This document shows, piece by piece, positions 31,670-46,078 of a stretch of DNA of 64,000 nt. Below the pieces are notes generated by a model. The model was not told where the DNA came from, did not search any database, and saw only the letters and a program-made list of their open reading frames with translations. Origin of the DNA: Algibacter amylolyticus (GTDB taxonomy: Bacteria; Bacteroidota; Bacteroidia; Flavobacteriales; Flavobacteriaceae); contig NZ_JACHGE010000004.1 in assembly GCF_014202225.1 (NCBI RefSeq), positions 186,001-250,000 of the forward strand, in the 5' to 3' direction. A program made the translations under genes and the position numbers. Positions within the stretch are counted from its first letter, which is position 1, and each line of letters begins with the position of its first letter.

Positions 31670-32944
31670 CTACTTAGGAAACTTATTGCGAATTTTATCT
31701 AAACATAAATTATGAATACTACCAGCGTGTGTATGTTTTTTAGAAGTATCAGGAACATAAGTACCATCTTGTACTTGTCCGCCTATTTTTTGATAAGCTT
31801 CCCTAAAGCTTTGCCCTTCAACAACCAACGTATTAATATTATCTACAGTAAATAAGTACTTATATAAATCGCTATTTACATCAACATCTTTAACAATAAT
31901 TTGCTGAATCGAGTAATTAAAAATATCAAGTATATCTTTTAATTCTTCAAAAGCAGCAATCATGTTTTCCTTTAACAACTGATAATCTCTATGGTATCCA
32001 CTTGGTAAATTATTGGTTATTAATACCATTTCACCTTGTAAGGCTTGGATTTTATTACACTTACCACGAATCAACTCAAATACATCCGGATTCTTTTTAT
32101 GTGGCATTATACTACTACCTGTTGTTAACTCATCTGGGAAGGAGATAAAGCCAAAATTCTGACTCATGTACAAACACGTATCCATAGCAAAACGTGACAA
32201 GGTATTACATAAACTACCTAATGCTACTGCAATAGTTCGCTCGTTTTTACCACGTCCCATTTGGGCAGCCACTACATTGTATTTTAGTGTTGCAAACCCC
32301 ATTTCTTTGGTGGTTAATTCTCTATCAATTGGAAATGAACTTCCGTAACCTGCTGCCGAACCTAAAGGGTTTTGGTCTACCGTTTTAATAGCGGCATCCA
32401 ATAAAAACACATCGTCAATCATAAGTTCTGCATAGGCAGAAAACCACAACCCAAATGATGATGGCATAGCCACTTGTAAATGTGTATAACCCGGTAAAAC
32501 CTTGTCTTTATAAGTGTCAGCTAAACCTAAAAGGGTTTCAAAAAGTGTTTTTGTTTTATCTTTAATAACACCTAAGTTCTCTTTGTAATATAAATGACAA
32601 GCCACTAAAACTTGATCGTTTCTAGAACGTGCGGTATGGATTTTTTTTCCAACTTCGCCTAAAGACTTTGTTAATTCAAATTCAATTTTTGAGTGTACAT
32701 CTTCAAATTGTGCATCGATAACAAAAGTTCCGTTTTCAATTTGCTCTTCAAGAACTTTTAATCCGCCCAATAATTCTACCAATTCTTCAACCGAAATAAT
32801 TCCGATTTTCTGAAGCATTTTGGCATGTGCTTTTGATGCAATAACATCGTATTTTGCAATATGAATATCAATTTCGCGGTCGTTTCCAACTGTAAATTGT
32901 TCTATTTTTTTATCGATTGATATGCCTTTATCCCAGAGTTTCAT
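31670..32944 (-). CDS. argH: Argininosuccinate lyase
   Basis: 424 residues. The fumarase/ASL signature GSSIMPHKKNPDV (near 280) and HTARSRNDQVLVACHLYY (about 101-118) are present. It splits argininosuccinate into arginine and fumarate, the last biosynthetic step. It is the last biosynthetic gene of the arginine/proline operon. A cluster of family A and B palindromes separates it from argE. Confidence 0.95.
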   Translation of the reverse strand: MKLWDKGISIDKKIEQFTVGNDREIDIHIAKYDVIASKAHAKMLQKIGIISVEELVELLGGLKVLEEQIENGTFVIDAQFEDVHSKIEFELTKSLGEVGKKIHTARSRNDQVLVACHLYYKENLGVIKDKTKTLFETLLGLADTYKDKVLPGYTHLQVAMPSSFGLWFSAYAELMIDDVFLLDAAIKTVDQNPLGSAAGYGSSFPIDRELTTKEMGFATLKYNVVAAQMGRGKNERTIAVALGSLCNTLSRFAMDTCLYMSQNFGFISFPDELTTGSSIMPHKKNPDVFELIRGKCNKIQALQGEMVLITNNLPSGYHRDYQLLKENMIAAFEELKDILDIFNYSIQQIIVKDVDVNSDLYKYLFTVDNINTLVVEGQSFREAYQKIGGQVQDGTYVPDTSKKHTHAGSIHNLCLDKIRNKFPK

Positions 32945-32961
32945 TTTAGTAAATTTTTGTT

Positions 32962-33126
32962 ATTCCCGCGAAGACGGGAATCTTATTTAATTTCCGCGAA
33001 AGCAGAAATCTCCGCTTTCATTTTTATTTATCTATTTGTTTTAAAGATGCGTCAAGTTTTTAAATTCTAGCACATCTAATTTATGTTTTCAGTTTACACC
33101 TACAAGGTTTTTAAAACCTCGCAGGA
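32962..33126. repeat. Cluster of family A and B palindromes between argE and argH
   Basis: Family A copies at 32962-32981 (ATTCCCGC-GAAG-ACGGGAAT) and 32991-33008 (TTTCCGC-GAAA-GCAGAAA). A family B copy at 33098-33126 (ACCTACAAGGTTTTT with AAAACCTCGCAGG). They lie within a 195-base gap inside an otherwise tight operon. Confidence 0.65.
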
Positions 33127-33139
33127 GCTATTGAAAATA

Positions 33140-34210
33140 CTATCCCAAAAGTACGTTCTTCAACAATTCAATATATATCTGTACACCTTCCTCAATTTCA
33201 TTTACGTAAATAAATTCGTTTGCCGAATGCGAGCGTGTGCTATCGCCTGGTCCTAGCTTTAAACTCGGACAGGTTAATACCGCTTGATCGGATAAGGTTG
33301 GCGACCCATAAGTGGTTCGTCCCATAGCAACGCCTGCTTTTACCAAATCGTGTTCCACAGGAATACTAGATGAATTTAAACGCAAACTACGTGCTTTTAT
33401 GCTTGTAACGGGTGCTTTTTCTTGTAAAATTTCGGCAATTTCAGCATTGCTATACGCATCGTTTACACGAACATCAATCACTAGATCGACGTGTGCTGGC
33501 ACTACATTATGTTGTGAGCCTGCATTAATTTGTGTTACCGTAAGCTTAACATCGCCTAAAGCTTCAGAACCTTTTTCGAACTTAAAATCTTTAAACCATT
33601 GTAACGCATCAATTGTATTATAAATGGCGTTATTATTATTTGGATGTGCTGCATGACTTGGTGTACCTTCAATAACGGCATCAAAAACTACCAAACCTTT
33701 TTCGGCAACGGCTAGATTCATTAAAGTAGGCTCGCCAACAATAGCGACATCTACCTTAGGGATAATTGGAAGCATACTATTTAGCCCGTTTGGACCACTG
33801 CTTTCCTCTTCCGCGGAAGCGACAATAACTAAATTATATTTTAAATTTTCCTGATTGTAAAAATGGGTAAATGTTGCTATTAATGATACCAAACAACCAC
33901 CTGCATCGTTACTTCCTAAACCATATAATTTACCATCTTGAACAAAGGCCTCTAACGGATTATTAGTGTAGGCCGAATTTGGCTTAACCGTATCGTGATG
34001 GGAGTTTAACAATAGCGTTGGTTTGTCTTCATCAAAATGCTTATTGACTGCCCAAACGTTATTTTTTGTGCGTTTATAATCGATTTTATAACGTGTAAAC
34101 CAATCTTCAATATGCAATGCTGTTTTGTCCTCTTCGGAAGAAAAAGACTGCGTTTCTATCAGCTTTTTTAATAGCGATATAGCATCTTGTGTTAAATCTT
34201 GTATGGGCAT
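33140..34210 (-). CDS. argE: M20 deacylase of the arginine pathway (ArgE-like)
   Basis: 356 residues, M20 family dizinc amidohydrolase. Zinc ligands appear in LLLNSHHDTVKPN (about 70-82) and GLGSNDAGGCLVS (about 96-108). The catalytic EE is in VASAEEESSGPNG, and the lid domain follows (VEGTPSHAAHPNNNNAI). It removes the N-acyl group of acyl-ornithine or, in organisms using acylcitrulline transcarbamylation, N-acylcitrulline. The adjacent argF' at 35997 favours acylcitrulline as the substrate. It overlaps nothing but starts one base after argB ends. Confidence 0.9.
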   Translation of the reverse strand: MPIQDLTQDAISLLKKLIETQSFSSEEDKTALHIEDWFTRYKIDYKRTKNNVWAVNKHFDEDKPTLLLNSHHDTVKPNSAYTNNPLEAFVQDGKLYGLGSNDAGGCLVSLIATFTHFYNQENLKYNLVIVASAEEESSGPNGLNSMLPIIPKVDVAIVGEPTLMNLAVAEKGLVVFDAVIEGTPSHAAHPNNNNAIYNTIDALQWFKDFKFEKGSEALGDVKLTVTQINAGSQHNVVPAHVDLVIDVRVNDAYSNAEIAEILQEKAPVTSIKARSLRLNSSSIPVEHDLVKAGVAMGRTTYGSPTLSDQAVLTCPSLKLGPGDSTRSHSANEFIYVNEIEEGVQIYIELLKNVLLG

Positions 34211-34211
34211 A

Positions 34212-34991
34212 TTATAGGGTTATGGTTGTAAAATTATCATTTTCTTGCGTTAGCATAGATGTATTTCCCATATTTATAGAGTTTACACCACCACGTAAAG
34301 CATCGAAACAGTTTTCTAATTTGGGTAGCATGCCATCTGCAATAATCCCTTTAGCTAATAAATCTTGATAGGTTTTGGTGTTAATGTGTTTTACTACCGA
34401 GTTTTTATCGTTTATATCTTCTAGAACACCATTAAGCTCGAAACAATAATAAATTGAAGTGTTGTATAACGCACTCATGCCAACGGCTACTTGCGAGGTA
34501 ATAGTATCGGCATTGGTATTTAACAACTGCCCGTTTCCGTCGTGTGTTATAGCACAAAAAACAGGTGTGAAATCGGCTTGAATTAATTTATCGATTGATT
34601 TATGAGCTACTGCTTTAACATCGCCAACAAAACCAAAATCGATGTCTTTTACCGGACGCTTATCTGATTGTATGCTGTTAACATCGGCTCCTGTTAATCC
34701 AATAGCGTTAGTATTTAAAGCTTGCAGTTTTGCTACCACATTTTTGTTAACCAAACCACCGTAAACCATGGTAATAACCTCAAGAGTTTCGGCATCGGTA
34801 ATTCTACGACCATTTACCATTTTAGACTCAATACCTAACTTAGAAGCGATATGTGTTGCACGTTTACCACCTCCATGAACCAATATTTTCTTGCCTTCTA
34901 AATTGGAAAATAATTTTAAAAATGCCTGTAAAGCGTTTTCATCTTCAATAATATTTCCTCCTATTTTTACTATGGATAGTTTTTCTTTCAT
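34212..34991 (-). CDS. argB: N-acetylglutamate kinase (possibly N-succinylglutamate kinase)
   Basis: 259 residues, amino-acid kinase fold. VKIGGNIIED (residues 8-17) binds phosphate, VHGGGKRATHIASKLGI (about 38-54) and INMGNTSMLTQEN near the C-terminus are standard. It phosphorylates the N-acylglutamate formed in the first step. Whether the acyl group is acetyl or succinyl is open: Bacteroidota are known to use an N-succinyl route in at least Bacteroides fragilis. It is one base from argE. Confidence 0.92.
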   Translation of the reverse strand: MKEKLSIVKIGGNIIEDENALQAFLKLFSNLEGKKILVHGGGKRATHIASKLGIESKMVNGRRITDAETLEVITMVYGGLVNKNVVAKLQALNTNAIGLTGADVNSIQSDKRPVKDIDFGFVGDVKAVAHKSIDKLIQADFTPVFCAITHDGNGQLLNTNADTITSQVAVGMSALYNTSIYYCFELNGVLEDINDKNSVVKHINTKTYQDLLAKGIIADGMLPKLENCFDALRGGVNSINMGNTSMLTQENDNFTTITL

Positions 34992-34996
34992 GTATA

Positions 34997-35983
34997 TTAA
35001 ACTACAATTGTTTTTTCAATATTATTATATGTTATCCAAGATTTTAAGCGACCTATATAAAACATTTTAAGGTAATTTTCGGATAGAAAAATGTTAGACC
35101 AATCGAACCTTTTAGCTTGAACACCAAGATAAAAAACTAAAACAGCTAATCCTGCTTTTGGAATAAAATTCATTTCGGCATCCGATATACGCTTAACACT
35201 TTGATAGCCGGCTAAAAACTGCTTCTTTTTTTGTTCGTAAGTCGTCTTATCCGTTTCGATGTTAAACAACTGAAAACAAAAATACCCTACATCTAAAATT
35301 TGAGGGCCATTACCACAAAAATCGAAATCGAAAATGGTAATATCGCCTGTTTCTTTAACCGCCATATTATCATACCAAATATCTAAATGAACGCTACCTT
35401 TTTGAAGGTTTTCAAAATCGTTATCATGATAATAACTATCTATGTTTTTGATAAATTCCATTTCTGGTAAATCTTCAGTAAAATACGTTTTTAAATACGT
35501 GTAAGGCTCTTCTAGCAGTGACTTATAATTATATGAAATACGGTTTAAGATTTTATTTTCGGTAAGTGTATGTATTTTGGCCATTAGTGCCCCAATATTA
35601 AAACAGGTTTCCTCCTTTAGAAATCGGATTTTCTCTCCTTTAGCAAACGAAAAAAGCACTACATACCTTTTACCTTCTGGCGCTTCTATTTCTTGAATAT
35701 ACTCCCCTTTTCTATCTGGAATAGGAAAAGAAACACTTAAATTATTCTCCTGAAGTAACTTTAAAAGCGTTATTTCTTCTGAAATTTCAGGTTTAGACCT
35801 CCAATTATGACTGTAAACTCTTAAAACATATTTCGTTTCATTATTGGAAAGAAAATACGTGTGATTCATTCCTGTACGGAACAATTTACAATCAAAATCC
35901 CCATGTAATGGATATTTACCTTGTACAAATGCTCCCAATTCTTTTGCCGAAAGCGTAGAAGTTATAACAGGAAATACAGTCAT
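34997..35983 (-). CDS. Aminoglycoside-phosphotransferase-fold kinase in the arginine operon
   Basis: 328 residues of the APH/homoserine kinase-II (ThrB2-like) fold. The catalytic loop is HLDIWYDNM (about 201-209) and the metal motif is IFDFDFCGNGP (about 217-227). The N-terminal lobe FRTGMNHTYFLSNNETKYVLRVYSHNW binds ATP. It presumably phosphorylates a small hydroxylated or aminated compound, and the substrate is unknown. Six bases separate it from argB and 13 from argF', so it is part of the operon. No argininosynthesis step requires a kinase besides ArgB and ProB, which makes its presence odd. Confidence 0.8.
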   Translation of the reverse strand: MTVFPVITSTLSAKELGAFVQGKYPLHGDFDCKLFRTGMNHTYFLSNNETKYVLRVYSHNWRSKPEISEEITLLKLLQENNLSVSFPIPDRKGEYIQEIEAPEGKRYVVLFSFAKGEKIRFLKEETCFNIGALMAKIHTLTENKILNRISYNYKSLLEEPYTYLKTYFTEDLPEMEFIKNIDSYYHDNDFENLQKGSVHLDIWYDNMAVKETGDITIFDFDFCGNGPQILDVGYFCFQLFNIETDKTTYEQKKKQFLAGYQSVKRISDAEMNFIPKAGLAVLVFYLGVQAKRFDWSNIFLSENYLKMFYIGRLKSWITYNNIEKTIVV

Positions 35984-35996
35984 TAGTTAATAGTTT

Positions 35997-36935
35997 CTAT
36001 GAATCTTCTAATATCTTTTTAAGCACTAATTGCGCTGCGTAGGTTCTGTTGTTTGCTTGTTGTATTACCAAAGAACTATCGGTATCTAAAACAGCATCTT
36101 CAACCACTACATTTCTTCTAACGGGCAAACAGTGCATAAATTTTGCATCGCCAAGTTTAGCTTTAGTAATCATCCAATTAGGATCGGTATTGATTACTTT
36201 TCCGTAATCTTGATACGAGCTCCAGTTTTTAGTATATACAAAATCGGCATCTTTAAAGGCTTCTTCTTGATTGTGATAAATTGGCGTATCTCCAGTAATT
36301 TCTGGATTTAAATCGTAACCTTCTGGATTAGCAATTACAAACTCTACATCCATTTTTTGCATAGCTTGAGCAAAACTATTTGCCACAGCATGAGGCAAAG
36401 CCTTTACATGTGGCGCCCAACTTAAAACCACTTTAGGCTTTTTAACCTTAGCATGTTCTGAAATGGTAATCGCATCGGTTAATCCTTGTAATGGATGTCC
36501 TGTAGCACTTTCCATGTTTACAATAGGCACTGAAGCATATTTTTTAAACGCATTTAAAACCTGCTCGCTATTATCTTTTTCTTTATCGGTTAAAGTAGGA
36601 AATGCTCTTACTGCAATAATATCACAGTATTGAGACACTACGGCTGCAGCTTCTTTAATATGTTCGGCTGTATTGCCATTCATAATGGTACCATCGCCAA
36701 ACTCAATTCCCCAAGCGTCGCCAGAAACATTCATTACAATAGGAGCCATACCTAAATTTAAAGCTGCTTTTTGAGTACTTAAGCGCGTACGTAAGCTAGA
36801 ATTAAAAAACAATAAACCCAATGTTTTATTTTTTCCTAATTCTTGATGCTCTAGCGGATTTGCTTTAAGTTTTTTGGCTTCTTCAATCCAAGTATTAATA
36901 TTATCTATATCGTTAATTGACGTGTAATTTTTCAT
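35997..36935 (-). CDS. argF': N-acylornithine transcarbamylase (ArgF-prime, SOTCase/AOTCase type)
   Basis: 312 residues. The carbamoyl-phosphate motif FNSSLRTRLSTQKAAL (about 48-63) replaces the STRT of ordinary ArgF, and HCLPVRRNVVVEDAVLD (about 270-286) is the family's C-terminal motif. This pattern is typical of N-acetyl- or N-succinyl-ornithine transcarbamylases, where acyl-ornithine is carbamoylated before deacylation. Within Bacteroidota the characterised enzyme (Bacteroides fragilis) acts on N-succinylornithine. The acyl specificity here was not assigned from residues I can verify. Confidence 0.88.
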   Translation of the reverse strand: MKNYTSINDIDNINTWIEEAKKLKANPLEHQELGKNKTLGLLFFNSSLRTRLSTQKAALNLGMAPIVMNVSGDAWGIEFGDGTIMNGNTAEHIKEAAAVVSQYCDIIAVRAFPTLTDKEKDNSEQVLNAFKKYASVPIVNMESATGHPLQGLTDAITISEHAKVKKPKVVLSWAPHVKALPHAVANSFAQAMQKMDVEFVIANPEGYDLNPEITGDTPIYHNQEEAFKDADFVYTKNWSSYQDYGKVINTDPNWMITKAKLGDAKFMHCLPVRRNVVVEDAVLDTDSSLVIQQANNRTYAAQLVLKKILEDS

Positions 36936-36984
36936 TTTATGCTCGCCTATGCGGGTATCTTTTTAATTTAACTTTAATTTTTTA

Positions 36985-37011
36985 CTACAAGGTTTTTGAA
37001 ACCTTACAGGA
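36985..37011. repeat. Family B palindrome at the end of proB
   Basis: CTACAAGGTTTTT and AAACCTTACAGG form the arms. The element starts at the proB stop codon and encodes that protein's last residues (CKVSKTL), so the gene end has been replaced by repeat DNA. Confidence 0.7.
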
Positions 37012-37767
37012 TATTTTAGTAAACGCCACCTTATCTTCCATGGCATTTAGCATAAAATCATCCTCTAATCCGTTTACAATCCATGTTTCAATATTTGCTG
37101 CTTTAGCTACCGTAGCCGCTTCTATTTTAGATTCCATACCACCACTACCATGCGTAGATTTCGAGTTTACAACTTGAGCTCTTAAGGCATCAAAATCTAT
37201 AACTTCTTTTATGGTTTTAGGCGCTCCATTCTCCATAGATTCCTTGGTATAAATACCATTTGTATTGGTAGCAATTATAAATAAATCGACATTTAAAAGG
37301 GATGCTGTTAAGGCGCCTAATTTATCGTTATCACCAAATTTAATTTCGTCGGTGGCAACGGTATCGTTTTCATTAATTATAGGAATGTAGTTATTGTTTA
37401 CCAACACGTTAATAGTGTTAACAATATTGGTTTTACTTTCTTGCTTTTCAAAATCTGAATAAGACAATAAACATTGCGAACTCAACAAGCCATATTCTCT
37501 AAAAATTTCTTGATAGATTCGTATTAAATGCGGCTGCCCTATAGATGCCAAGGCTTGTTTTACAAACACTTCTTCGCGCTGACTTTCTAGCTTTACAAAT
37601 TGTTTTGCCACAGCAATAGCACCAGAACTTACAATAATAAACTCGTGGGTATCTTGAAGCTTTTGTATTTGGTTTGCAATATCTTCAATTTTACCACGCG
37701 ATAAATTATTGGTTTCTTTAGTTAGCGTGTTAGAGCCAATTTTTAGTAAAATGCGTTTTTTCTTCAT
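36985..37767 (-). CDS. proB: Glutamate 5-kinase (catalytic domain only)
   Basis: 260 residues. ILLKIGSNTLTKE (residues 5-17) and FIIVSSGAIAVAK are the kinase motifs, and IPIINENDTVATDEIKFGDNDKLGA (near 128-152) is the glutamate/proline-binding region. It makes glutamyl-5-phosphate. The C-terminal PUA domain found in enterobacterial ProB (about 367 residues) is absent. It lies next to proA in an operon that also makes arginine, so glutamate flow to both products is co-ordinated. Confidence 0.93.
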   Translation of the reverse strand: MKKKRILLKIGSNTLTKETNNLSRGKIEDIANQIQKLQDTHEFIIVSSGAIAVAKQFVKLESQREEVFVKQALASIGQPHLIRIYQEIFREYGLLSSQCLLSYSDFEKQESKTNIVNTINVLVNNNYIPIINENDTVATDEIKFGDNDKLGALTASLLNVDLFIIATNTNGIYTKESMENGAPKTIKEVIDFDALRAQVVNSKSTHGSGGMESKIEAATVAKAANIETWIVNGLEDDFMLNAMEDKVAFTKISCKVSKTL

Positions 37768-37818
37768 TATTTAAAACTTCACCTGCTTATTTTAAAACAC
37801 CCATTAAGATATACCTAA

Positions 37819-39015
37819 TTAGCGTATTTGCCCATTACCATGAACGTACCATTTATTAGTGACTAAATGCTGTAAACCAATTGGTCCTCGTTGGTGTAAT
37901 TTATCGGTACTAATGGCTAACTCGCCACCTAAACCAAACTCGAAACCATCTGTAAAACGTGTTGATGCATTATGATAAACAGCACCACAATCTACACTAG
38001 CCATAAAATTTTCGGCAGCACCTTGTGCACTTGTTACTATAGATGCCGAGTGACCTCCACTGTATTTATTAATCATTTCGATAGCCGCTAAGGTATGTGG
38101 TATACTTCCAATAACGATTTTATAATCTAAAAACTCTTTATACCAAATATCGTCGTTTTCAATTTGCTTAACCGTTTTATAATTGGCTAAAGAATCATCT
38201 CCTAAAACTTCAACATTATGTGATGCTAAGCGTTCTAATAAATCTTCAATAAACTGTGCTTTATTTGGCAAATCATTATCGATTAATACTTTATCTACAG
38301 CATTACAACCAGACACTTTTTGTGTTTTGGCATTTACAATAATATCGAGAGCCATAGCTACATCGGCATGTTTATGCACATACACGAAGTTATTTCCGCG
38401 TCCGCTAACAATTACAGGACATTTAGCATTTTGCTTTACAAACTCGATTAAACGTTCGCCACCACGTGGCACAATTAAATCTAAAGTTTGCGTTGGATTT
38501 TCTAAAAACGCTTGTGTTTCGGTACGGTTATAATTTAAATACTCCACCCATTCTGTACTTACATCGTTATCTTGTAATGCCTTGTGCCATAAATCTACAA
38601 TAGCTAAGTTAGAATTTAAAGATTCTTTACCGCCTTTTAATAAAATTTTGTTTCCAGATTTGAATGCAATGCCTCCGGCTTCGATAGTAACATCTGGTCG
38701 CGACTCATAAATAATCATGACCGTACCAAATGAAGCTGTGCGATTATAAATTTGCATGCCATTATCGTGTGTAAAGCTAAAACGCTCTACACCTACAGGA
38801 TCTTCTAATTCTGCTAACTGGCGTAAAGACTCAATCATGCCTTCTATTTTGGCATCGTTAACTTTTAAACGATCACTCATAGCCAAATCACTATCATCAT
38901 AGCTATCCATATCTATTTTGTTAGCATCTAGGATAGTTTGTGCGTGTTCTTTAACCAATTCCTTCATGGAATTTAATACGGCATTACGTTTATGTATACT
39001 TAGTGTTTTGTTCAT
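37819..39015 (-). CDS. proA: Glutamate-5-semialdehyde dehydrogenase
   Basis: 398 residues, aldehyde-dehydrogenase fold. The active Cys is in TQKVSGCNAVDKVLID (near 240), and NRTASFGTVMIIYESRPDVTIEA (about 90-112) is a ProA hallmark. VYHNASTRFTDGFEFGLGGELAISTDKLHQRGPIGL near the C-terminus is typical. It reduces glutamyl-5-phosphate to the semialdehyde. It follows the unknown secreted gene by 10 bases and precedes proB by 51. Confidence 0.95.
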   Translation of the reverse strand: MNKTLSIHKRNAVLNSMKELVKEHAQTILDANKIDMDSYDDSDLAMSDRLKVNDAKIEGMIESLRQLAELEDPVGVERFSFTHDNGMQIYNRTASFGTVMIIYESRPDVTIEAGGIAFKSGNKILLKGGKESLNSNLAIVDLWHKALQDNDVSTEWVEYLNYNRTETQAFLENPTQTLDLIVPRGGERLIEFVKQNAKCPVIVSGRGNNFVYVHKHADVAMALDIIVNAKTQKVSGCNAVDKVLIDNDLPNKAQFIEDLLERLASHNVEVLGDDSLANYKTVKQIENDDIWYKEFLDYKIVIGSIPHTLAAIEMINKYSGGHSASIVTSAQGAAENFMASVDCGAVYHNASTRFTDGFEFGLGGELAISTDKLHQRGPIGLQHLVTNKWYVHGNGQIR

Positions 39016-39025
39016 TTTTAGTTAC

Positions 39026-39616
39026 TTAATTACATTTGCTATTATAGAAATCAACGATATCTTCAATAGCTCCTTTACTTAACTCTTTTTGTTTTAATTT
39101 TTCTAGTAAAACGGGACAATCCTCAAATAAGTGCCATTCATTTTTTCTTATTTTTCGTCCAATGTTAATGGTATTATCATTCTTTTCAATGTAGTACACA
39201 TTACTTCCACCGTAACCCATAGACATCATTGGCATTCCCGTATTTGCACCTCCCACTCCCATACCCATTGGCATTGAACCACTGGACTTATAAACAACAA
39301 ATAAATTTAATTCACCTAATTGAACAATCTTCATTAACATTGTGAAATCACCAACTGTCTTATAACGATATTTCTCATTTGTAGTTAAATCATCATAACC
39401 AGTTACATTACTAGAGTCGTAAGTCTCAGGTTTAGAATCTAAATTTTCCCTAAACTTAATTCCTCCAAATGACCTTCTCTTTATTAAACCTTTTTCTGAA
39501 GTACCATCTGTAAAATAAACAATAGCTTTTTCATAAAGTTCCCCTTTCGACAATCCAAATTGTGCTTTCGCACCTAGAGAAAAAAACAATGTGATTAGAA
39601 TAAAAATGTTTTTCAT
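39026..39616 (-). CDS. Secreted protein of unknown function inside the arginine/proline operon
   Basis: 196 residues. A signal peptide (MKNIFILITLFFSLGAKA) ends before QFGLSKGELYEK. The remainder is soluble, with alternating beta-like strands (AIVYFTDGTSEKGLIKRRSFGGIKF), a glycine/methionine-rich stretch SMPMGMGVGGANTGMPMMSMG (about 113-133), and no clear motif. I do not recognise a family. It lies four bases after argD's stop and ten before proA, so it is co-transcribed. Its relation to amino-acid synthesis is unknown; periplasmic location makes an enzymatic role in the cytosolic pathway unlikely. Confidence 0.75.
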   Translation of the reverse strand: MKNIFILITLFFSLGAKAQFGLSKGELYEKAIVYFTDGTSEKGLIKRRSFGGIKFRENLDSKPETYDSSNVTGYDDLTTNEKYRYKTVGDFTMLMKIVQLGELNLFVVYKSSGSMPMGMGVGGANTGMPMMSMGYGGSNVYYIEKNDNTINIGRKIRKNEWHLFEDCPVLLEKLKQKELSKGAIEDIVDFYNSKCN

Positions 39617-39620
39617 TTTT

Positions 39621-40775
39621 CTAGCTTACGTTTACAGCTTCTTCAATCTCAACCAACGCTTCAACCAACGCTTCAAAAAACATATTAATATGATCTCTTC
39701 TCAACGTTAACGGAGGTAATATTCTTAATAATTTTTTATTTGCGGCTCCACCAGTAAAAATATGGTGTTTATAAATTAAATTCTTTCTAAGTTCTCCAAC
39801 TTCAAAATCGAATTCTAATCCTAGCATCAACCCTCTTCCTTTTATATTTTTTATTTGCGGAATGGTTTTGGCTAATTTCATGAAATAGCACGACATCTCA
39901 TTTACATTATCTATTAACTTATGCTCTTCAATAACGTTTAAAACCGATAAACCTGCTGCGCAAGCTAAATGGTTTCCACCAAAAGTAGTGCCTAACATGC
40001 CAAATTTAGCTTCAATATTTGGATGAATTAAAATCCCTCCAATAGGAAAACCGTTCCCCATACCTTTTGCTATGGATATAACATCTGGCGTTACATTATA
40101 GTGCTGAAATGCAAAAAACTTGCCTGAGCGTCCGTAACCAGACTGTACCTCATCGGCAATAAACATGGTGTTATTTGCTTTACAAAGTGCATCAACAGAT
40201 TCAAAAAACTCAGCAGAACCTTCATCCAAACCACCTACACCTTGAATAAACTCAACAATAACCGCACAAACATCACCTTTTTCTAATTCTGATTTTACAC
40301 CTTCAATATCGTTTAACTCAAGAATAGTTACTTTTTGCTGCGCATTAATTGGCGCAATAATATTTGGGTTATCGGTTGCCGCTACAGCGGCCGACGTACG
40401 ACCATGAAAACCATTTTTAAAAGCAACCACACGAGATTTCCCCGTTTTAAACGATGCCAGTTTTAAGGCATTCTCGTTAGCCTCGGCACCAGAATTGCAT
40501 AAAAACAACTCATAGTCTTTACAACCCGAAAGTGCTTCTAATTTATCGGCAAGCTCTACCTGTAACGGATTTTGAACTGCATTAGAGTAAAACCCTAATT
40601 TAGCGACTTGAGATGCTACAGCATCAACATAATCTGTATGCGCATGTCCAATAGAAATTACAGCATGACCTCCGTAAAGATCTAAATACTCTGTGCCTTT
40701 TTCATCGTAAACATAAACACCTTTTCCTGAAACAGGCGTTACATCATATAACGGGTAAACATTAAATAGTGGCAT
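39621..40775 (-). CDS. argD: Acyl-ornithine / aspartate-family aminotransferase (ArgD)
   Basis: 384 residues, class-III aminotransferase. The PLP lysine is in SIAKGMGNGFPIGG (near 240), preceded by FIADEVQSGYGRSGKFFAF. YLDLYGGHAVISIGHAHTDYVDAVA is conserved near 30-54. It transaminates N-acylglutamate semialdehyde to N-acylornithine. The length and neighbours fit ArgD rather than ornithine aminotransferase. It follows proC's stop by one base. Confidence 0.92.
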   Translation of the reverse strand: MPLFNVYPLYDVTPVSGKGVYVYDEKGTEYLDLYGGHAVISIGHAHTDYVDAVASQVAKLGFYSNAVQNPLQVELADKLEALSGCKDYELFLCNSGAEANENALKLASFKTGKSRVVAFKNGFHGRTSAAVAATDNPNIIAPINAQQKVTILELNDIEGVKSELEKGDVCAVIVEFIQGVGGLDEGSAEFFESVDALCKANNTMFIADEVQSGYGRSGKFFAFQHYNVTPDVISIAKGMGNGFPIGGILIHPNIEAKFGMLGTTFGGNHLACAAGLSVLNVIEEHKLIDNVNEMSCYFMKLAKTIPQIKNIKGRGLMLGLEFDFEVGELRKNLIYKHHIFTGGAANKKLLRILPPLTLRRDHINMFFEALVEALVEIEEAVNVS

Positions 40776-40776
40776 T

Positions 40777-41571
40777 TTATTTGGTTTTTATTTGGTTTAT
40801 TTTCTCAAACGATGCGTTAATTCCTTTAATAAGCGACGAGCTTAAACCTTGGTGTTCCATTTCGTTTAAGCCTTCAATAGTACAGCCGCTAGGTGTTGTA
40901 ACACGATCTATTTCTTCCTCTGGGTGTTTGCCAGATTCTTTTAATAACGTAGCCGCCCCAAAACAAGTTTGCATAGCAAGTTCATGCGCTTCATGAGCCT
41001 CAAATCCTAACTGAATAGCGCCTTGTGTCGTAGCGCGAATTAAACGCATCCAAAAGGCAATTCCGCTAGCACAAATAACTGTTGCTGCCTGTAATTGTTC
41101 CTCCGGAATTATCATAGATCGCCCCATACAATCAAAAATAGTTTTTGCTAATTCTACTTTAGCCTTAGCCATGTCATTTACCGAAATACAGGTCATAGAT
41201 TGCCCCACAGAAGCCGCCGTATTTGGCATAGCGCGAACAACAAAACGATCTTTACCTACAATATCTTCAATTCTTGAAATTGCAAAACCAGTTATAACCG
41301 AAATAATAACATGATTTTTATTAAGTAACGGTTTTAAATCCTTTAAAATAGCCTCAAAATGACGCGGTTGAACCGCAAAAATTAAAATATCGGCATTTTT
41401 AACAGCTAAAGCATTATCCGAAGTAAGCTCAACCTTATCAAACTCCTCAAACCCTTTAATAGAGCTTATATTTCTCTTCGTTAAATACAACGTTGTTAAA
41501 GCATTTGTCGTTACCAATCCTTTTGCAATAGACTGTCCTAAACTTCCTGCTCCTATAATTGCTACTTTCAT
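40777..41571 (-). CDS. proC: Pyrroline-5-carboxylate reductase
   Basis: 264 residues. The Rossmann start MKVAIIGAGSLGQSIAKGL binds NAD(P)H. VVRAMPNTAASVGQS (about 111-125) and the C-terminal helical region DRVTTPSGCTIEGLNEMEHQGL (near 223-244) are P5CR landmarks. It completes proline synthesis from the ProBA product. Its place between argC and argD shows proline and arginine genes are fully interleaved. Confidence 0.94.
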   Translation of the reverse strand: MKVAIIGAGSLGQSIAKGLVTTNALTTLYLTKRNISSIKGFEEFDKVELTSDNALAVKNADILIFAVQPRHFEAILKDLKPLLNKNHVIISVITGFAISRIEDIVGKDRFVVRAMPNTAASVGQSMTCISVNDMAKAKVELAKTIFDCMGRSMIIPEEQLQAATVICASGIAFWMRLIRATTQGAIQLGFEAHEAHELAMQTCFGAATLLKESGKHPEEEIDRVTTPSGCTIEGLNEMEHQGLSSSLIKGINASFEKINQIKTK

Positions 41572-41622
41572 ATTAACTCTTTTATCGCACCCTTCAATAA
41601 GGGAATCTATTTAATTTATAAT

Positions 41623-41710
41623 GGCGTTACCACAAGGGTCGGGCTTTACGCTGCAAGTCCTCGCACCTCCTTCGTCGGGCTATGGGCTTTCCACTGCAAT
41701 CCCTAACGCA
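41623..41710 (-). repeat. Dispersed repeat family C, copy 6
   Basis: Almost the same as copy 1 (ends GCGTTAGGGATTG and GTGGTAACGCC). It lies in the 208-base gap between argC and proC, within the operon, so the operon transcript would contain this hairpin. Confidence 0.85.
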
Positions 41711-41779
41711 GAAAAACCTCGTAGGCATTAACGCAAACTTTTACTCTACTCTTCCTTTTACTGAATCTAAATCAACTCC

Positions 41780-42763
41780 CTAAAAATAAGTTGCCTTTAA
41801 ACCTAAACCTAAAGCTTCTTCTAATCCAAACATTAAATTCATGTTCTGTACTGCTTGTCCAGAAGCACCTTTTAATAAGTTATCAATTACACTAGTAATT
41901 AATAATTTCCCGTTGTGTTTATGTACATGAACCAAACATTTATTGGTGTTTACAACTTGTTTCATGTGTAAAAAATCATCAGCTACAAAGGTAAATTTAA
42001 CATCTGCATAAAATGCTTCGTATAACGCTTTTGCATCCTCTACTGTACCTTCGTAATCGGTATAAATAGTAGCAAAAATACCTCTAGAAAAATTACCTCT
42101 ATTTGGCATAAAAATAATTTCGGAATTAAAGCTAGATTGCAATTGATTAACCGATTGGTTTATTTCTCCTAAATGCTGATGCGTAAACGGCTTGTAATAC
42201 GAAAAGTTATTATCTCGCCACGTATAATGTGTAGTTGCAGATAATGACGTTCCTGCACCCGTAGCACCTGTAACAGCATTAATATGCACATCGTTACCAA
42301 GTAAACCAGCATCTGCCAATGGCAACAAACCTAATTGAATAGCCGTAGCAAAACACCCTGGATTTGCAATATAATTAGCACTTACAATTGCATCTTTATT
42401 TAACTCTGGTAAGCCATAAACAAATGTTTTTCCATTAAAAACCTTATCGGCTTCTAACCTAAAATCGTTACCTAAATCAATAATTTTTGTGTTTTTAGAA
42501 AACGTATTAGCCTCTAAAAACTTAACAGAATTTCCATGACCTAAGCATAAAAACAAAACATCAACATTTGGGTTTACGGTATCTGTAAATTTTAAATCTA
42601 AAGTCCCAACTAAATCCTGATGTATTTTGCTAATCTTATTGCCAGCGTTACTTGTACTAAACACAAAATCAATTTCGGTTTCTGGGTGGTTAATTAGCAA
42701 CCTAATTAACTCACCTGCTGTATAACCAGCACCACCAATAATTCCTGCTTTAATTTTTTTCAT
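41780..42763 (-). CDS. argC: N-acetyl(or succinyl)-gamma-glutamyl-phosphate reductase
   Basis: 327 residues. GIIGGAGYTAGELIRLL (about 6-22) binds NADP, the nucleophile Cys is in ANPGCFATAIQLGLLPL (near 135), and TGATGAGTSLSATTHY follows. It reduces the acylglutamyl phosphate made by ArgB. It follows argG by 85 bases that contain a half family B repeat (42834-42850). Confidence 0.95.
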   Translation of the reverse strand: MKKIKAGIIGGAGYTAGELIRLLINHPETEIDFVFSTSNAGNKISKIHQDLVGTLDLKFTDTVNPNVDVLFLCLGHGNSVKFLEANTFSKNTKIIDLGNDFRLEADKVFNGKTFVYGLPELNKDAIVSANYIANPGCFATAIQLGLLPLADAGLLGNDVHINAVTGATGAGTSLSATTHYTWRDNNFSYYKPFTHQHLGEINQSVNQLQSSFNSEIIFMPNRGNFSRGIFATIYTDYEGTVEDAKALYEAFYADVKFTFVADDFLHMKQVVNTNKCLVHVHKHNGKLLITSVIDNLLKGASGQAVQNMNLMFGLEEALGLGLKATYF

Positions 42764-42848
42764 TTTTTATACTTCTTTTAGACCTAAACGCTTAAAAAAA
42801 CTGACGGTCTTTTTGGAAATTTATTTCTCTTTTGAGACCTACAAGGTT

Positions 42849-44024
42849 TTATGAGTTTACTTGTCTGTAAATTTTATTTTGATTCCCAATAATTTTGATG
42901 AATCCTTTTGCATCCTCTGCAGTCCACGCTTTATTTTCTTCGCCATAAGTACTAAACTTACTAGACATTAAATCATGATCTGAAACAATACCATCTAAAG
43001 AAAAGTGGTAAGGTTTTAAAGTCACTACAACATTACCAGAAACCATTTTTTGAGAACTTTGTAAAAAGGCTTCTGTATCGCGCATAACAGGATCTAAATA
43101 TTGACCTTCATGTAAATGCATGCCGTAAAAACTAGACAGATAATCTTTGTGCTGTAATTGCCATTTTGTTAAGGTGTGCTTCTCTAACAAATGGTGCGCC
43201 TTTACTGTAATTAAAGCAGCAGCAGCTTCAAAACCAACACGTCCTTTAGTTCCAACAATAGTATCGCCAACATGAATATCTCTACCAATAGCGTAAGCCG
43301 AAGCTATGTTATTTAGCTTTTCTATATTAACTTCCGGAGCATTTTCTTCGCCATTTAACGCTACAAACTCACCATTTTTAAAGGTTAGCGTTACTTTTTC
43401 TTCACCTTCTTTTTCTAATTGCGATGGGTAAGCCTCGCTTGGTAAAGGTTTTTCAGACTTTAAAGTCTCTACACCGCCAACACTAGTTCCCCAAAGGCCT
43501 TTATTAACCGAGTATTTAGATTTTTCCCAAGGCATATCAATACCTTCAGATTTTAAATAATCTATCTCCTCTTGTCTTGTTAATTTTTGGTCTCTAATTG
43601 GCGTAATAATTTTAATGTTTGGCGCTAAGGTTTGAAAAATCATATCAAAACGTACTTGATCGTTTCCGGCTCCTGTACTACCATGAGCAATATATTCGGC
43701 ATCAATACTTTTAGCATATTCAATAATTTCAATAGCTTGAATAATACGTTCGGCACTAACAGACAATGGGTAGGTACCGTTTTTTAATACGTTTCCAAAA
43801 ATTAAATACTTTACTACTTTTTGGTAAAATGTAGCTACGGCATCAATATTTTTATAAGTTGAAACGCCCATTTTATAAGCGTTACTTTCAATATGCTTAA
43901 TTTCTTCAGTTGTAAAACCACCTGTATTTACACTTACAGCATGTACATCATACTCTTTTGATAAACTTACTGCGCAATACGATGTATCTAAACCTCCACT
44001 ATATGCTATTACTAATTTTTTCAT
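42849..44024 (-). CDS. argG: Argininosuccinate synthase
   Basis: 391 residues. The PP-loop AYSGGLDTSYCAVSL (about 7-21) and AHGSTGAGNDQVRFD (near 114) are standard. ATP-dependent condensation of citrulline and aspartate. It is the second gene of the operon, 30 bases after the GNAT gene. It is a class of ArgG that lies among early arginine genes in Bacteroidota. Confidence 0.95.
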   Translation of the reverse strand: MKKLVIAYSGGLDTSYCAVSLSKEYDVHAVSVNTGGFTTEEIKHIESNAYKMGVSTYKNIDAVATFYQKVVKYLIFGNVLKNGTYPLSVSAERIIQAIEIIEYAKSIDAEYIAHGSTGAGNDQVRFDMIFQTLAPNIKIITPIRDQKLTRQEEIDYLKSEGIDMPWEKSKYSVNKGLWGTSVGGVETLKSEKPLPSEAYPSQLEKEGEEKVTLTFKNGEFVALNGEENAPEVNIEKLNNIASAYAIGRDIHVGDTIVGTKGRVGFEAAAALITVKAHHLLEKHTLTKWQLQHKDYLSSFYGMHLHEGQYLDPVMRDTEAFLQSSQKMVSGNVVVTLKPYHFSLDGIVSDHDLMSSKFSTYGEENKAWTAEDAKGFIKIIGNQNKIYRQVNS

Positions 44025-44054
44025 TTTATTATTTTGTATAACTTATTCTATAAT

Positions 44055-44627
44055 TTAAATTTGTTTTAAATGTCCTATTTCAGACTTAAAACATTCATTA
44101 ACATAATACTTGAAATTTAACTCGTCCCTTAATTTCCCCAGTTTTTCTAGCTCCTCAACCAAGCCCGCAGACATTTTAGCTAAGGTAACATGAGTCATCC
44201 CTATTAACTCATTATAATGATGCACTTTAGGAGTTTGTGCTACCGAAATTAAAAAAGAATTAGAAAACAACTCGGTCATTCTAGACATTAATAACAACCC
44301 AAGGTTATAATTTCGACAGTCGCGATCTACCCACAACGAGGTACGTTCGTAAACAGAATGCCCTTTTACCTGGTGCTCATGAACAAAAATATGACCATAA
44401 ATTCTATCATCTTTCTTCAATATAAAACAGCCATTTTCAGCACGCGTTCTTAGCATGTCTACATCTACATAATATAATGTAGAGAGCTCTTTTGAGCGTT
44501 CTGAAATTAATTCTAACGTTTTATTAGAAAGTTTATAAACGAGCTTTATCTCTATGTCTTCATTAAAACAATAGGCTTCAGCTTTCTCTATAACACTTAT
44601 AATATCTGTATCCAATATAGTATCCAT
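44055..44627 (-). CDS. GNAT acetyltransferase, candidate N-acylglutamate synthase
   Basis: 190 residues, single GNAT fold. The acyl-CoA-binding stretch VDRDCRNYNLGLLLMSRM (near 106-123) follows the GHIFVHEHQVKGHSVYERTSLWV strand pair, as in GNAT enzymes, although the QxxGxG/A loop is degenerate. No classical argA or argJ is seen in the operon, yet ArgB, ArgC, ArgD and ArgE all require an N-acylglutamate. As the first gene it is the natural candidate for the synthase that makes N-acetyl- or N-succinylglutamate. That function is inferred from position, not from residues. It follows the leader RNA. Confidence 0.7.
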   Translation of the reverse strand: MDTILDTDIISVIEKAEAYCFNEDIEIKLVYKLSNKTLELISERSKELSTLYYVDVDMLRTRAENGCFILKKDDRIYGHIFVHEHQVKGHSVYERTSLWVDRDCRNYNLGLLLMSRMTELFSNSFLISVAQTPKVHHYNELIGMTHVTLAKMSAGLVEELEKLGKLRDELNFKYYVNECFKSEIGHLKQI

Positions 44628-44742: not shown

Positions 44743-44948
44743 AAAAAAAATAACGAAACTTCGAAAGCAAATAGCTTTCTTAAACTGAATAGCCCCTAGG
44801 GGCGAGTTAAAGGAAAACGCACAACAGTTGCTTTAGTATTTGCTACTAAAACAGAAGAGATAAGAGATATGTTGTTTCCTGTTTTCACTGAATAACTACC
44901 TTAACTATTAACTCTAAATCGTCGGCGTGAGCCCCTTTCGTTAATATA
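44743..44948 (-). ncRNA. Structured leader RNA of the arginine/proline operon (candidate attenuator)
   Basis: The RNA is read on the minus strand from a likely start near 44948 to a run of eight U (44743-44750). Complementary pairs: TAACGAAA (44936-44943) with TTTCGTTA (44751-44758), closing the whole element next to the U-run; GGGGC with GCCCC and GAGTTAA with TTAACTC, two consecutive pairs on the 3' side; AGGAAA..CAACA with TGTTG..TTTCCT; and a perfect hairpin TTTAGTA-GCAAA-TACTAAA. GAAAGC-TATTT-GCTTTC (44763-44779) forms a terminator-like hairpin, while AGCAAATA from the hairpin above can instead pair with TATTTGCT of that stem. It does not resemble the SAM, TPP, cobalamin or lysine riboswitches I know. 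Confidence 0.55.
44796..44888 (-). CDS. Possible 30-residue leader peptide with terminal arginine codons
   Basis: A GTG-initiated frame inside the leader RNA, ending in VVRFPLTRP then TAG. CGT and CGC arginine codons occupy positions 24 and 29 of 30, and the stop lies inside GCCC-CTAG-GGGC. Codon choice (TTA, ACT, GTT, TCT) looks like that of nearby genes. There is no ATG or Shine-Dalgarno, and an open run this short is not rare by chance, so translation is unproven. Confidence 0.35.
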   Translation of the reverse strand: MKTGNNISLISSVLVANTKATVVRFPLTRP

Positions 44949-44953
44949 AGGCG

Positions 44954-44983
44954 CAAAATTACAACTAATTATGGATTACACAA
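44954..44983 (-). promoter_or_regulatory. Promoter of the arginine/proline operon
   Basis: -33 TTG (44981-44983) and -7 TAATTTTG (44954-44961, exact TAnnTTTG) are 19 bases apart. The predicted start falls near 44948, just ahead of the closing helix of the leader RNA. This is the best match to the Bacteroidota promoter pattern in the window. Confidence 0.65.
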
Positions 44984-45100: not shown

Positions 45101-46078
45101 CTATTTAGGCAAAACAAATGGTCTTAAAGATGTTTTTTCAGCAGTAGGAAAATCTTCAGGCAATTCCGTTTGGGTTACCTTATTTGTTGCTGCCCATTCT
45201 ACACCTCTTTTTAATAGGGTAATAAAGCCAACACACTCAAAAGATGTGGTATCGTGCCCCAAAGGTGTATGAAAAACTCTTCCTTTACCATATTTTACTA
45301 CCAAAGCAACTGGTTCTTTTTGTTCCAACTCTGGTTTTTTCTTAGTAGAGACTGCGGTTGCTAAAATGGCTACATTTTTTGCAGGCCCTCTTAAAAAAGC
45401 ATAACATTCGTCTGGTGCATGCATCCATACCTTAGGCATGCCTTTTGTAATAGGATGTTCTGTATCAAAAATAGTTATAGGAAAAGCTTCTCTTTTACCA
45501 TGCGTTCCTCCTTTTCCGGGACTATAATCTCTTTTAACTTTGTTATCCTTATCCACATACAAATAGGGGCCGTCTTTTTCGGTTCTTCCGCCCCAACCGC
45601 CAATGGCAATCATTTCGTTATAAGCTGCCCATTCCGGAAAGCTATTATCGGCTGCATGTACACTTACAAAACCACCTCCTTTTTCTATGTATTTTTCAAA
45701 AGCAAGCTTAGTTTTTTCTGGCCATGAAGCGGCACGCCAACCAAAATTAGAAATAACCACATCGTACTTTGAAAATTTAGGACTAAAATCTGGGTCGGTT
45801 TTTGGCTTACCCTCAATCCCTTCGGGTACATTGGCATACCCTAACCAACTTTTGTTTTCTTCACTATTATTTAAATATTTTGTTCGGGCGATATCTACCG
45901 TAAACAAGCCCGTTTCTTCAAGATACTGCTTCATCATTATAGTCGATTTTGGCCATACCGTATGGTTATTTTGTCCGTCTACAATCAGCACTTTTATTTT
46001 CCCCTTAATGGGGTTGCTTGCATAGCCTGTTGTTAAAAAACAAAGACTTATTAGTAATACAACAATACGATTTATCAT
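45101..46078 (-). CDS. ThuA-domain protein
   Basis: 325 residues. A signal peptide (MINRIVVLLISLCFLTTGYA) precedes the class-I glutamine amidotransferase-like ThuA domain, with KVLIVDGQNNHTVWPKSTIMMK (about 28-49), YDVVISNFGWRAASWPEKTKLAFEKYIEKGGGFVSVHAADN (about 108-148) and FHTPLGHDTTSFECVGF near the C-terminus. ThuA proteins accompany sugar-oxidation operons such as trehalose/sucrose utilisation, but their catalytic role is not settled. Last gene of the cluster at 45.1-50.4 kb. Confidence 0.9.
   Translation of the reverse strand: MINRIVVLLISLCFLTTGYASNPIKGKIKVLIVDGQNNHTVWPKSTIMMKQYLEETGLFTVDIARTKYLNNSEENKSWLGYANVPEGIEGKPKTDPDFSPKFSKYDVVISNFGWRAASWPEKTKLAFEKYIEKGGGFVSVHAADNSFPEWAAYNEMIAIGGWGGRTEKDGPYLYVDKDNKVKRDYSPGKGGTHGKREAFPITIFDTEHPITKGMPKVWMHAPDECYAFLRGPAKNVAILATAVSTKKKPELEQKEPVALVVKYGKGRVFHTPLGHDTTSFECVGFITLLKRGVEWAATNKVTQTELPEDFPTAEKTSLRPFVLPK

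Follow-up and report, generated by a model that had tools for sequence, protein, structure and literature searches.

What does the leader of about 200 nt between a candidate promoter and the first gene of an arginine/proline operon do in Algibacter amylolyticus? The window analysed here is a 64,000-nt stretch of this flavobacterial genome, and the leader occupies positions 44743 to 44948 on its minus strand. An initial annotation had described it as structured, non-coding DNA with mutually exclusive pairings, as expected of an attenuator or an unlisted riboswitch. By aligning the relatives of the element and surveying the regions upstream of argG in the family Flavobacteriaceae, we arrived at the reading that it is the 5′ leader of the arginine/proline operon, a ribosome-mediated attenuator sensing arginine and perhaps proline too, to which we assign a probability of roughly 0.8.

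The gene upstream of the leader ends at 45101, and the first two genes downstream, GNAT and argG, start at 44627 and 44024, all on the minus strand. The operon continues with argC, proC, argD, an unassigned gene (39026-39616), proA, an amino-acid kinase (36985), a carbamoyltransferase, an APH-like kinase, a further amino-acid kinase (34212), an M20 peptidase and a lyase. While argC, proC and proA scored above the NCBIfam curated cut-offs, argG and argD were best matches below theirs, and the amino-acid kinases, the M20 peptidase and the lyase are read, by their place, as putative proB, argB, argE and argH. The APH-family kinase gene (34997-35983, minus strand; Pfam) is situated inside this arginine operon between the carbamoyltransferase and amino-acid kinase genes. 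The GNAT gene (44055-44627, minus strand) was matched in 14 of the 249 family genomes searched, weakly in one; nine of the 13 genomes with strong matches also carried the exact 5′ motif of the leader, and the other four (G092, G118, G142 and G160) carried RRP-type leaders without it. Within the genus, the same three of ten genomes (own genome counted) possess both the leader element and the GNAT gene, and one same-genus genome was 99% identical across the element. The features of the leader are collected in Table 1.

Table 1. Features of the leader and its operon, in window positions.
Feature	Position	Strand	Basis
Candidate promoter −7 box TAATTTTG	44954..44961	−	Sequence; Bacteroidetes TAnnTTTG type
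Segment s1, TAACGAAAGGGGC; can pair with s4 (helix h1) or with the Arg29-Pro30 codons (helix h2)	44931..44943	−	Alignment
Near-invariant 5′ motif GGGGCTNNNGCCGACGATTTAGAGTTA	44909..44935	−	Conservation among relatives
Leader ORF, GTG start, 30 codons, TAG stop, ending V-V-R-F-P-L-T-R-P	44796..44888	−	Frame kept in homologues
Outer ORF stem h4, AGGAAACAACA with TGTTGTGCGTTTTCCT	44811..44880	−	One two-sided change
Hairpin h5 within the ORF, TTTTAGTA-GCAAA-TACTAAAG	44831..44851	−	5/8 pairs changed on both sides
Putative regulatory codons CGT (Arg24), CCT (Pro26), CGC (Arg29), CCC (Pro30)	44799..44819	−	Sequence; Arg29/Pro30 in pairing arm s2
Hairpin h6 round the stop codon, GCCCC-TAG-GGGC (s2 with s3)	44792..44803	−	Pair counts
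Hairpin h7, GAAAGC-TATTT-GCTTTC, 3′ of the ORF	44763..44779	−	2/6 pairs changed on both sides
s4, TTTCGTTA, then eight T	44743..44758	−	s4 exact in 29/37 homologues
Arginine/proline operon	31670..44627	−	NCBIfam and Pfam profile matches

A blastn search with the element in 299 sampled family genomes found 10 (nearly) full-length relatives besides the window, with 83-92% identity, and three more sharing the first ~55 nt only; many weak matches of 18-50 nt were treated as chance. Scanning species genomes with the 5′ motif yielded 95 stretches, of which the 80 listed came from Aquimarina, Algibacter, Polaribacter, Tamlana, Aestuariibaculum, Hyunsoonleella, Flavivirga, Jejuia and other Flavobacteriaceae/Bacteroidia. 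Together with the earlier loci these gave 101 distinct sequences, among which the invariance of the 5′ motif is partly imposed, as the loci were collected by the motif pattern. A script sorted them into groups A, B and C with 45, 50 and 6 members, the count for A including seven group C-like sequences. Group A (Algibacter, Tamlana, Polaribacter and others) has a GTG start and mostly the ending ...VVRFPxTRP-stop, group B (Aquimarina, Aestuariibaculum and others) an ATG start close behind the motif and mostly ...RRFRRPLGV-stop, and group C the ending ...VVRFPVRRP-stop. In 88 of the 101 distinct loci argG was located 846-1170 nt downstream; the remaining 13 end 222-1026 nt past the 5′ motif, and in loci long enough for the test the gene was thus found in 88 of 88. 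For 14 chosen homologues the mean identity to the window was 73% upstream, 80% in the promoter, 97% in the 5′ motif, 94% in the spacer, 85% in the ORF, 79% in the 3′ part and 59% after the element.

All segments quoted in the initial annotation were found on the minus strand, that is, TAACGAAA at 44943-44936, TTTCGTTA at 44758-44751 followed by T8 at 44750-44743, and GGGGC, GCCCC and GAAAGC-TATTT-GCTTTC. The promoter box TAATTTTG lies 10 nt 5′ of TAACGAAA and conforms to TAnnTTTG, which we take to be the Bacteroidetes −7 box consensus. Of the 45 group A homologues examined, 39 have exact TAnnTTTG upstream, and of the 43 having a box 35 show the same spacing; transcription would probably start a few nt 5′ of TAACGAAA. 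The exact 18-mer GCCGACGATTTAGAGTTA of the 5′ motif occurred in one copy each in 19 of 397 family genomes. When up to two mismatches were allowed in the 397 genomes, four places had one mismatch and the rest two, and the latter are mostly chance, because a backwards-pattern control also gave ~30 places. The GGC of s1 is also able to pair locally with GCC at 44926-44924. We considered the 5′ motif as a first translated leader and rejected this, since 11 of the 101 sequences have an in-frame stop and no common start codon was seen. In one frame the motif reads ...SRRRFRVNS-stop, resembling the first of the tandem Arg-rich leaders in relatives. The leader-peptide model does not account for the near-invariance of this motif.

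The description of the leader as non-coding has to be abandoned, because a conserved 30-codon ORF fills 44888-44796. The predicted peptide of the window is VKTGNNISLISSVLVANTKATVV-R-F-P-L-T-R-P-stop (GTG at 44888 to TAG at 44796), the leader RNA reading GTG AAA ACA GGA AAC AAC ... GTT GTG CGT TTT CCT TTA ACT CGC CCC TAG; it has just two Arg codons, adjoining two Pro codons. Among the 37 aligned group A homologues the reading frame through Arg-Pro was kept in 36, the ORF being 30 aa long in 30 and 35-38 aa in six, while the spacer 5′ of the GTG (21-24 nt) differs by single bases. That the frame is kept while the spacer shifts by single bases indicates selection on the ORF as an ORF, which is presumably translated. 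The one broken frame belongs to a degenerate leader in an Algibacter MAG (L003), in which the 5′ motif is intact and the operon present, and the frame and the Arg/Pro end are lost. Three of the 37 relatives (L014, L016 and L149) have lost the first Arg and retained the last Arg-Pro; judged by sequence, the Arg/Pro end is the best-kept part of the leader ORF. Proline genes were considered as an explanation of the Pro codons and gave no contrast, with proC and/or proA in the operons of both groups (11 loci printed).

In group B, 49 of 50 leaders end in [FI]RRP and 48 of 50 have 3 to 5 Arg among the last 10 residues. Codon positions 1 and 2 of the R-R-P codons are invariant in the 49 leaders; the first two Arg codons are substituted in a few. 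Third positions are free in the earlier Arg codons, the last Arg having C in 47 of 49 and the Pro C in 49 of 49, a constraint that is expected if the same bases also pair. Across 71 leaders, 265 of 281 Arg codons near the leader end were CGC/CGT; the 19 ORFs of the window contain 165 Arg codons, 81 of them CGC/CGT and 65 AGA/AGG. Both tRNA choice and the demands of pairing may lie behind the preference of the leaders for CGC/CGT.

Ribosomes can also be stalled by a nascent peptide on a free ligand, as in TnaC and SpeFL. If the leader worked in this way, the end of its peptide (R-F-P-x-x-R-P-stop or RRFRRP) would bind free arginine and stall the ribosome at the stop codon or the Pro. Pro stands directly before the stop in most leaders and the F between the arginines is conserved in groups A and B, as such arrest would predict, but the residues preceding the Arg run differ between the groups, most group B leaders have three further residues after the Pro, and the bases of the Pro codon also form the CCC arm of a hairpin, which can account for their being conserved with no arrest involved. 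We therefore regard nascent-peptide arrest as unlikely, and retain the reading in which the ribosome senses arginine through the supply of charged tRNA at the Arg/Pro codons.

To see how far such leaders extend, we turned to argG, detected in 169 of the 239 family genomes sampled, and surveyed 1.5 kb upstream of it in 100 loci, the top 60 by similarity and 40 across the rest of the printed list. An R-R-P-stop ORF was found in 73 of the 100 regions, where the reverse strand gave 2 and a single shuffle of each region 3; another of the four leader patterns discriminates less (62 forward, 20 reverse, 15 shuffled), and a loose count of Arg-rich ORFs (at least 3 Arg in the last 14) is useless alone, with 98 of 100 forward and 47 of 100 reverse. 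A CCC-N-GGG sequence, as a rule round the leader stop, followed by a hairpin with the loop AGGUGNGUCC was present in 81 of 100, and the 5′ motif in 10, one of them also with the AGGUGNGUCC hairpin. In total, 90 loci had the hairpin and/or the 5′ motif, four the R..RP leader alone, and six none of these; five of the six (L205, L239, L240, L243 and L260) show an Arg-rich small ORF, and the sixth (L268) has no ORF that could be called a leader. Most sampled relatives thus carry Arg-rich leaders. Many argG leaders (L178, L182, L199 and others of L174-L273) contain tandem Arg-rich leader ORFs, for example MKNLKNKIR...RRRF-stop followed by ...RRxFPRRP-stop. The AGGUGNGUCC hairpin pattern was matched by 30 of 50 group B leaders, the looser loop AGGTGNG[CT]CC by 44, the remaining six differing from it by one or two loop changes, and the pattern was absent from all 51 group A and C leaders.

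The initial annotation had called the folding of the leader unusually good. This is correct to a modest degree: the minus strand folds at −50.3 kcal/mol compared with −40.2 ± 4.2 for shuffles (z −2.4, with 5 of 200 shuffles as good). The plus strand gave z −2.7 and 2 of 200; with both strands scoring alike, the strand cannot be chosen by folding energy alone. Alignment A1 was made of 37 of the 45 group A sequences (the seven that resemble group C were omitted, as was L120, which is close to L103; the six group C leaders are in neither of our alignments). Under the combined structure, 95.5% of its cells were paired, and 36 cells carried two-sided changes; shuffles gave 8.4, and slid versions of the structure no more than 13. 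These changes are located in h5 and h7, plus one cell in h4, the halves of which were paired in 90.5% and 88.1% of cells. Conservation and covariation, the absence of which the initial annotation had said would count against its structure, were thus found for h5 and h7.

Of the four pairings proposed earlier one fails, that between GAGTTAA and TTAACTC: only 3 of 37 homologues can form the two innermost pairs, and the 63.7% of paired cells equals the shuffled value, as it must with a 5′ side that is the same in all sequences. Helices h1 (UAACGAAA/UUUCGUUA) and h2 (GGGGC/GCCCC) were paired in 96.6% and 99.5% of cells, respectively, and show no covariation, as their 5′ arm is invariant. The Arg29-Pro30 codons sit in both h2 and h6, and both helices are kept without clear two-sided changes. 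RNAalifold favoured h2 over h6 on the alignment, whereas single-sequence folding of the window RNA gave h2 a probability of 0.02 and h6 of 0.98. With ribosomes placed on the RNA, the probability of h1 was 0.80 with none, 0.35 at Arg24, 0.69 at Arg29 and 0.05 at the stop codon, and h2 never rose above 0.04 in any state, being outcompeted by the local h6 wherever the latter was free to form. Folding of the window RNA in this manner did not show a clean on/off switch.

In the wider family, an alignment that took in 84 of 109 sequences had 34 cells with two-sided changes, compared with 12.2 when shuffled and at most 26 when slid. The 26 remained after a slide by +1, so that the variable stem has no sharply defined register; the share of paired cells dropped from 94.3% to 57.1% on that slide. 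The counterpart of h6 here is a CCC-N4-GGG hairpin, with 94.3% of cells paired and without two-sided change. A family model, R1, found no significant match in the window's own genome (best E 0.43), the element itself scoring 12 bits (E 3.7). Since groups A and C have no AGGUGNGUCC hairpin and R1 is not significant, the window's clade is a diverged form. Applied across the phylum with stricter filters, R1 matched 12 of 296 genomes at E <1e-12, all in the same family; the other 41 matching genomes had E 4e-4 to 0.01 and look like chance. In g127, a large genus of this family, 16 of the 17 genomes of the printed list had no R1 match and one had E 0.003, which indicates that the element is not universal in the genus.

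The initial annotation had pointed to eight uridines behind TTTCGTTA. As a conserved feature they were not borne out, 8 or 9 of the 9 bases after TTTCGTTA being T in 4 of 37 group A homologues and at least 6 in 19 of 37. A terminator scan of the window found no intrinsic terminator at the leader. In the wider family, the 8 bases 3′ of the terminal hairpin contained at least 5 T in 10 of 81 sequences, and a control stretch 20 nt further on did so in 44 of 85. The terminator part of the initial annotation is therefore doubtful, given that the scan had no hit, the full U run is rare and the wider family has no U tract. We also tried, and rejected, an antiterminator in which the linker would pair with the 5′ arm of that terminal hairpin (mean best run 3.57 compared with 3.61 shuffled, n=81). 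The attenuator might act through termination of transcription, through Rho, on the stability of the RNA, on how the first gene is translated, or by way of a protein that recognises the conserved loop.

The same stretch could in principle be read as an independent RNA gene of ~200 nt, given its own promoter box, the complementary 5′ and 3′ ends that would close it into a stem, and a U run that is T8 in this species, with a T-rich stretch at this place in roughly half of the relatives. Its constant place ahead of the argG operon in all 88 testable loci and an ORF kept in frame leave such a stand-alone small RNA with hardly any credibility.

Could the RNA itself, rather than its translation, sense arginine or another ligand? 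In such a metabolite riboswitch the AGGUGNGUCC hairpin or the 5′ motif would form the aptamer, and the near-invariance of the motif and the strong conservation of the loop AGGUGNGUCC over stems changing in sequence would fit. There is no common core, though, the hairpin being missing from the 51 leaders of groups A and C and the motif being confined to a tenth of the surveyed loci; an Arg-rich ORF accompanies both RNA motifs, and no Rfam model matched above its gathering score. A riboswitch is thus very improbable. Of the earlier alternatives, attenuator or unlisted riboswitch, the attenuator is supported, though of the leader-peptide kind, the peptide having been missed; the riboswitch lacks support because the helices that covary are within the ORF or adjacent to it, and because across the wider family an Arg-rich ORF persists in RNA that is otherwise mostly different in sequence. 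That the element was unlisted in Rfam was confirmed, the window element giving no match at gathering score. Ten loci of relatives likewise gave no leader match at that score, just a Flavo-1 RNA elsewhere in one of them (L131). Under relaxed settings the best match in the window's element was a partial lysine riboswitch (E 0.02, 17.9 bits versus a cut-off of 30) overlapping the 5′ half, and one relative locus gave weak matches only. Elsewhere in the window, two SAM riboswitches (RF00162; 6391-6500 and 24932-25057, minus strand) and a Flavo-1 RNA (RF01705; 19775-19855, minus strand) scored above gathering.

The C-terminal domain (PF02863) of ArgR, the usual arginine repressor, was found in none of 120 family genomes, a set in which 100 had a completeness of at least 90%, whereas the same search gave matches in 8 of 14 genomes of a control set, including Bacteroides ihuae. 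In a phylum sample, 72 of 198 genomes had PF02863, 71 of them outside the window's class, and the sole match inside the class was borderline (25 bits) with an internal stop. The best reading is that the arginine attenuator stands in for ArgR, and the distribution of ArgR suggests that the mode of regulation has changed within a single phylum.

In the attenuator that we favour, a ribosome would translate the 30-codon leader peptide, the last Arg and Pro codons of which would serve as the GCCCC arm, and two partners would compete for this arm, the 5′ GGGGC and the GGGGC just after the stop codon. With charged tRNA-Arg in short supply, the ribosome would stall on the Arg/Pro codons and shift the helices ahead, and expression of the operon would go up; with arginine plentiful, it would finish the leader and the operon would be held down. 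Pairing of GCCCC with the post-stop GGG would be general, and the alternative pairing with the 5′ GGGGC would occur in groups A to C. More tentatively, and with clear reserve, these leaders may constitute a new class of ArgR-replacing arginine attenuators in Flavobacteriaceae, in which ribosomes stalled at RRP-stop control the AGGUGNGUCC hairpin instead of an intrinsic terminator, the window's clade using the near-invariant 5′ motif with UUUCGUUA, and the hairpin or motif being read by a trans factor, Rho or the ribosome itself. The leader suggests a way in which arginine synthesis can be regulated in a large family of environmental bacteria that lack ArgR as far as sampled, an Arg-Arg-Pro-stop leader plus hairpin provides a recognisable signature, and a conserved hairpin without a U tract makes the flavobacterial attenuation mechanism directly testable.

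Among known systems, the trpL and hisL leaders have a short ORF rich in codons for the product amino acid before a biosynthetic operon, overlapping competing helices. The leader of the window resembles them in its short ORF, its product-amino-acid codons, the biosynthetic operon downstream and its possible competing helices. It differs in that it would serve arginine, in a family in which the ArgR domain was not found, in that its codons and stop are placed in a hairpin arm, and in having no recognisable intrinsic terminator. Bacteroid-trp RNA, going by its name, precedes trp genes, and neither this model (RF01692) nor the T-box nor any other Rfam model matched the window's leader at gathering score. 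Bacteroid-trp RNA is listed as a probable cis-regulatory RNA in Bacteroidetes, and a GUCCY-hairpin motif of Bacteroidetes and Proteobacteria is named in the same 2010 list (PMC2864571). Among the literature matches listed, mostly non-subscription, no title or abstract start concerned an arginine biosynthesis leader peptide in Bacteroidota. A leader peptide sensing arginine shortage through Arg codons is described for rbfL of Staphylococcus aureus, which, as presented there, differs in controlling the translation of a biofilm regulator, with AGA/AGG codons and no arginine biosynthesis operon (PMC13009471). The tandem attenuators of mgtCBR, a different operon, have two short ORFs per leader as described, like the paired Arg-rich ORFs of argG leaders (PMC3641672). 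Within the same family, the main text of a transcriptome study of Flavobacterium psychrophilum mentions arginine once (cyanophycin) and argG never; it reports strong clues for leader-peptide attenuation before amino-acid biosynthesis operons, and conserved 5′ elements, those of pheA and hisG among them, are listed separately (PMC9723704). As a kind of regulation, leader-peptide attenuation is, by that account, already known within Flavobacteriaceae (PMC9723704).
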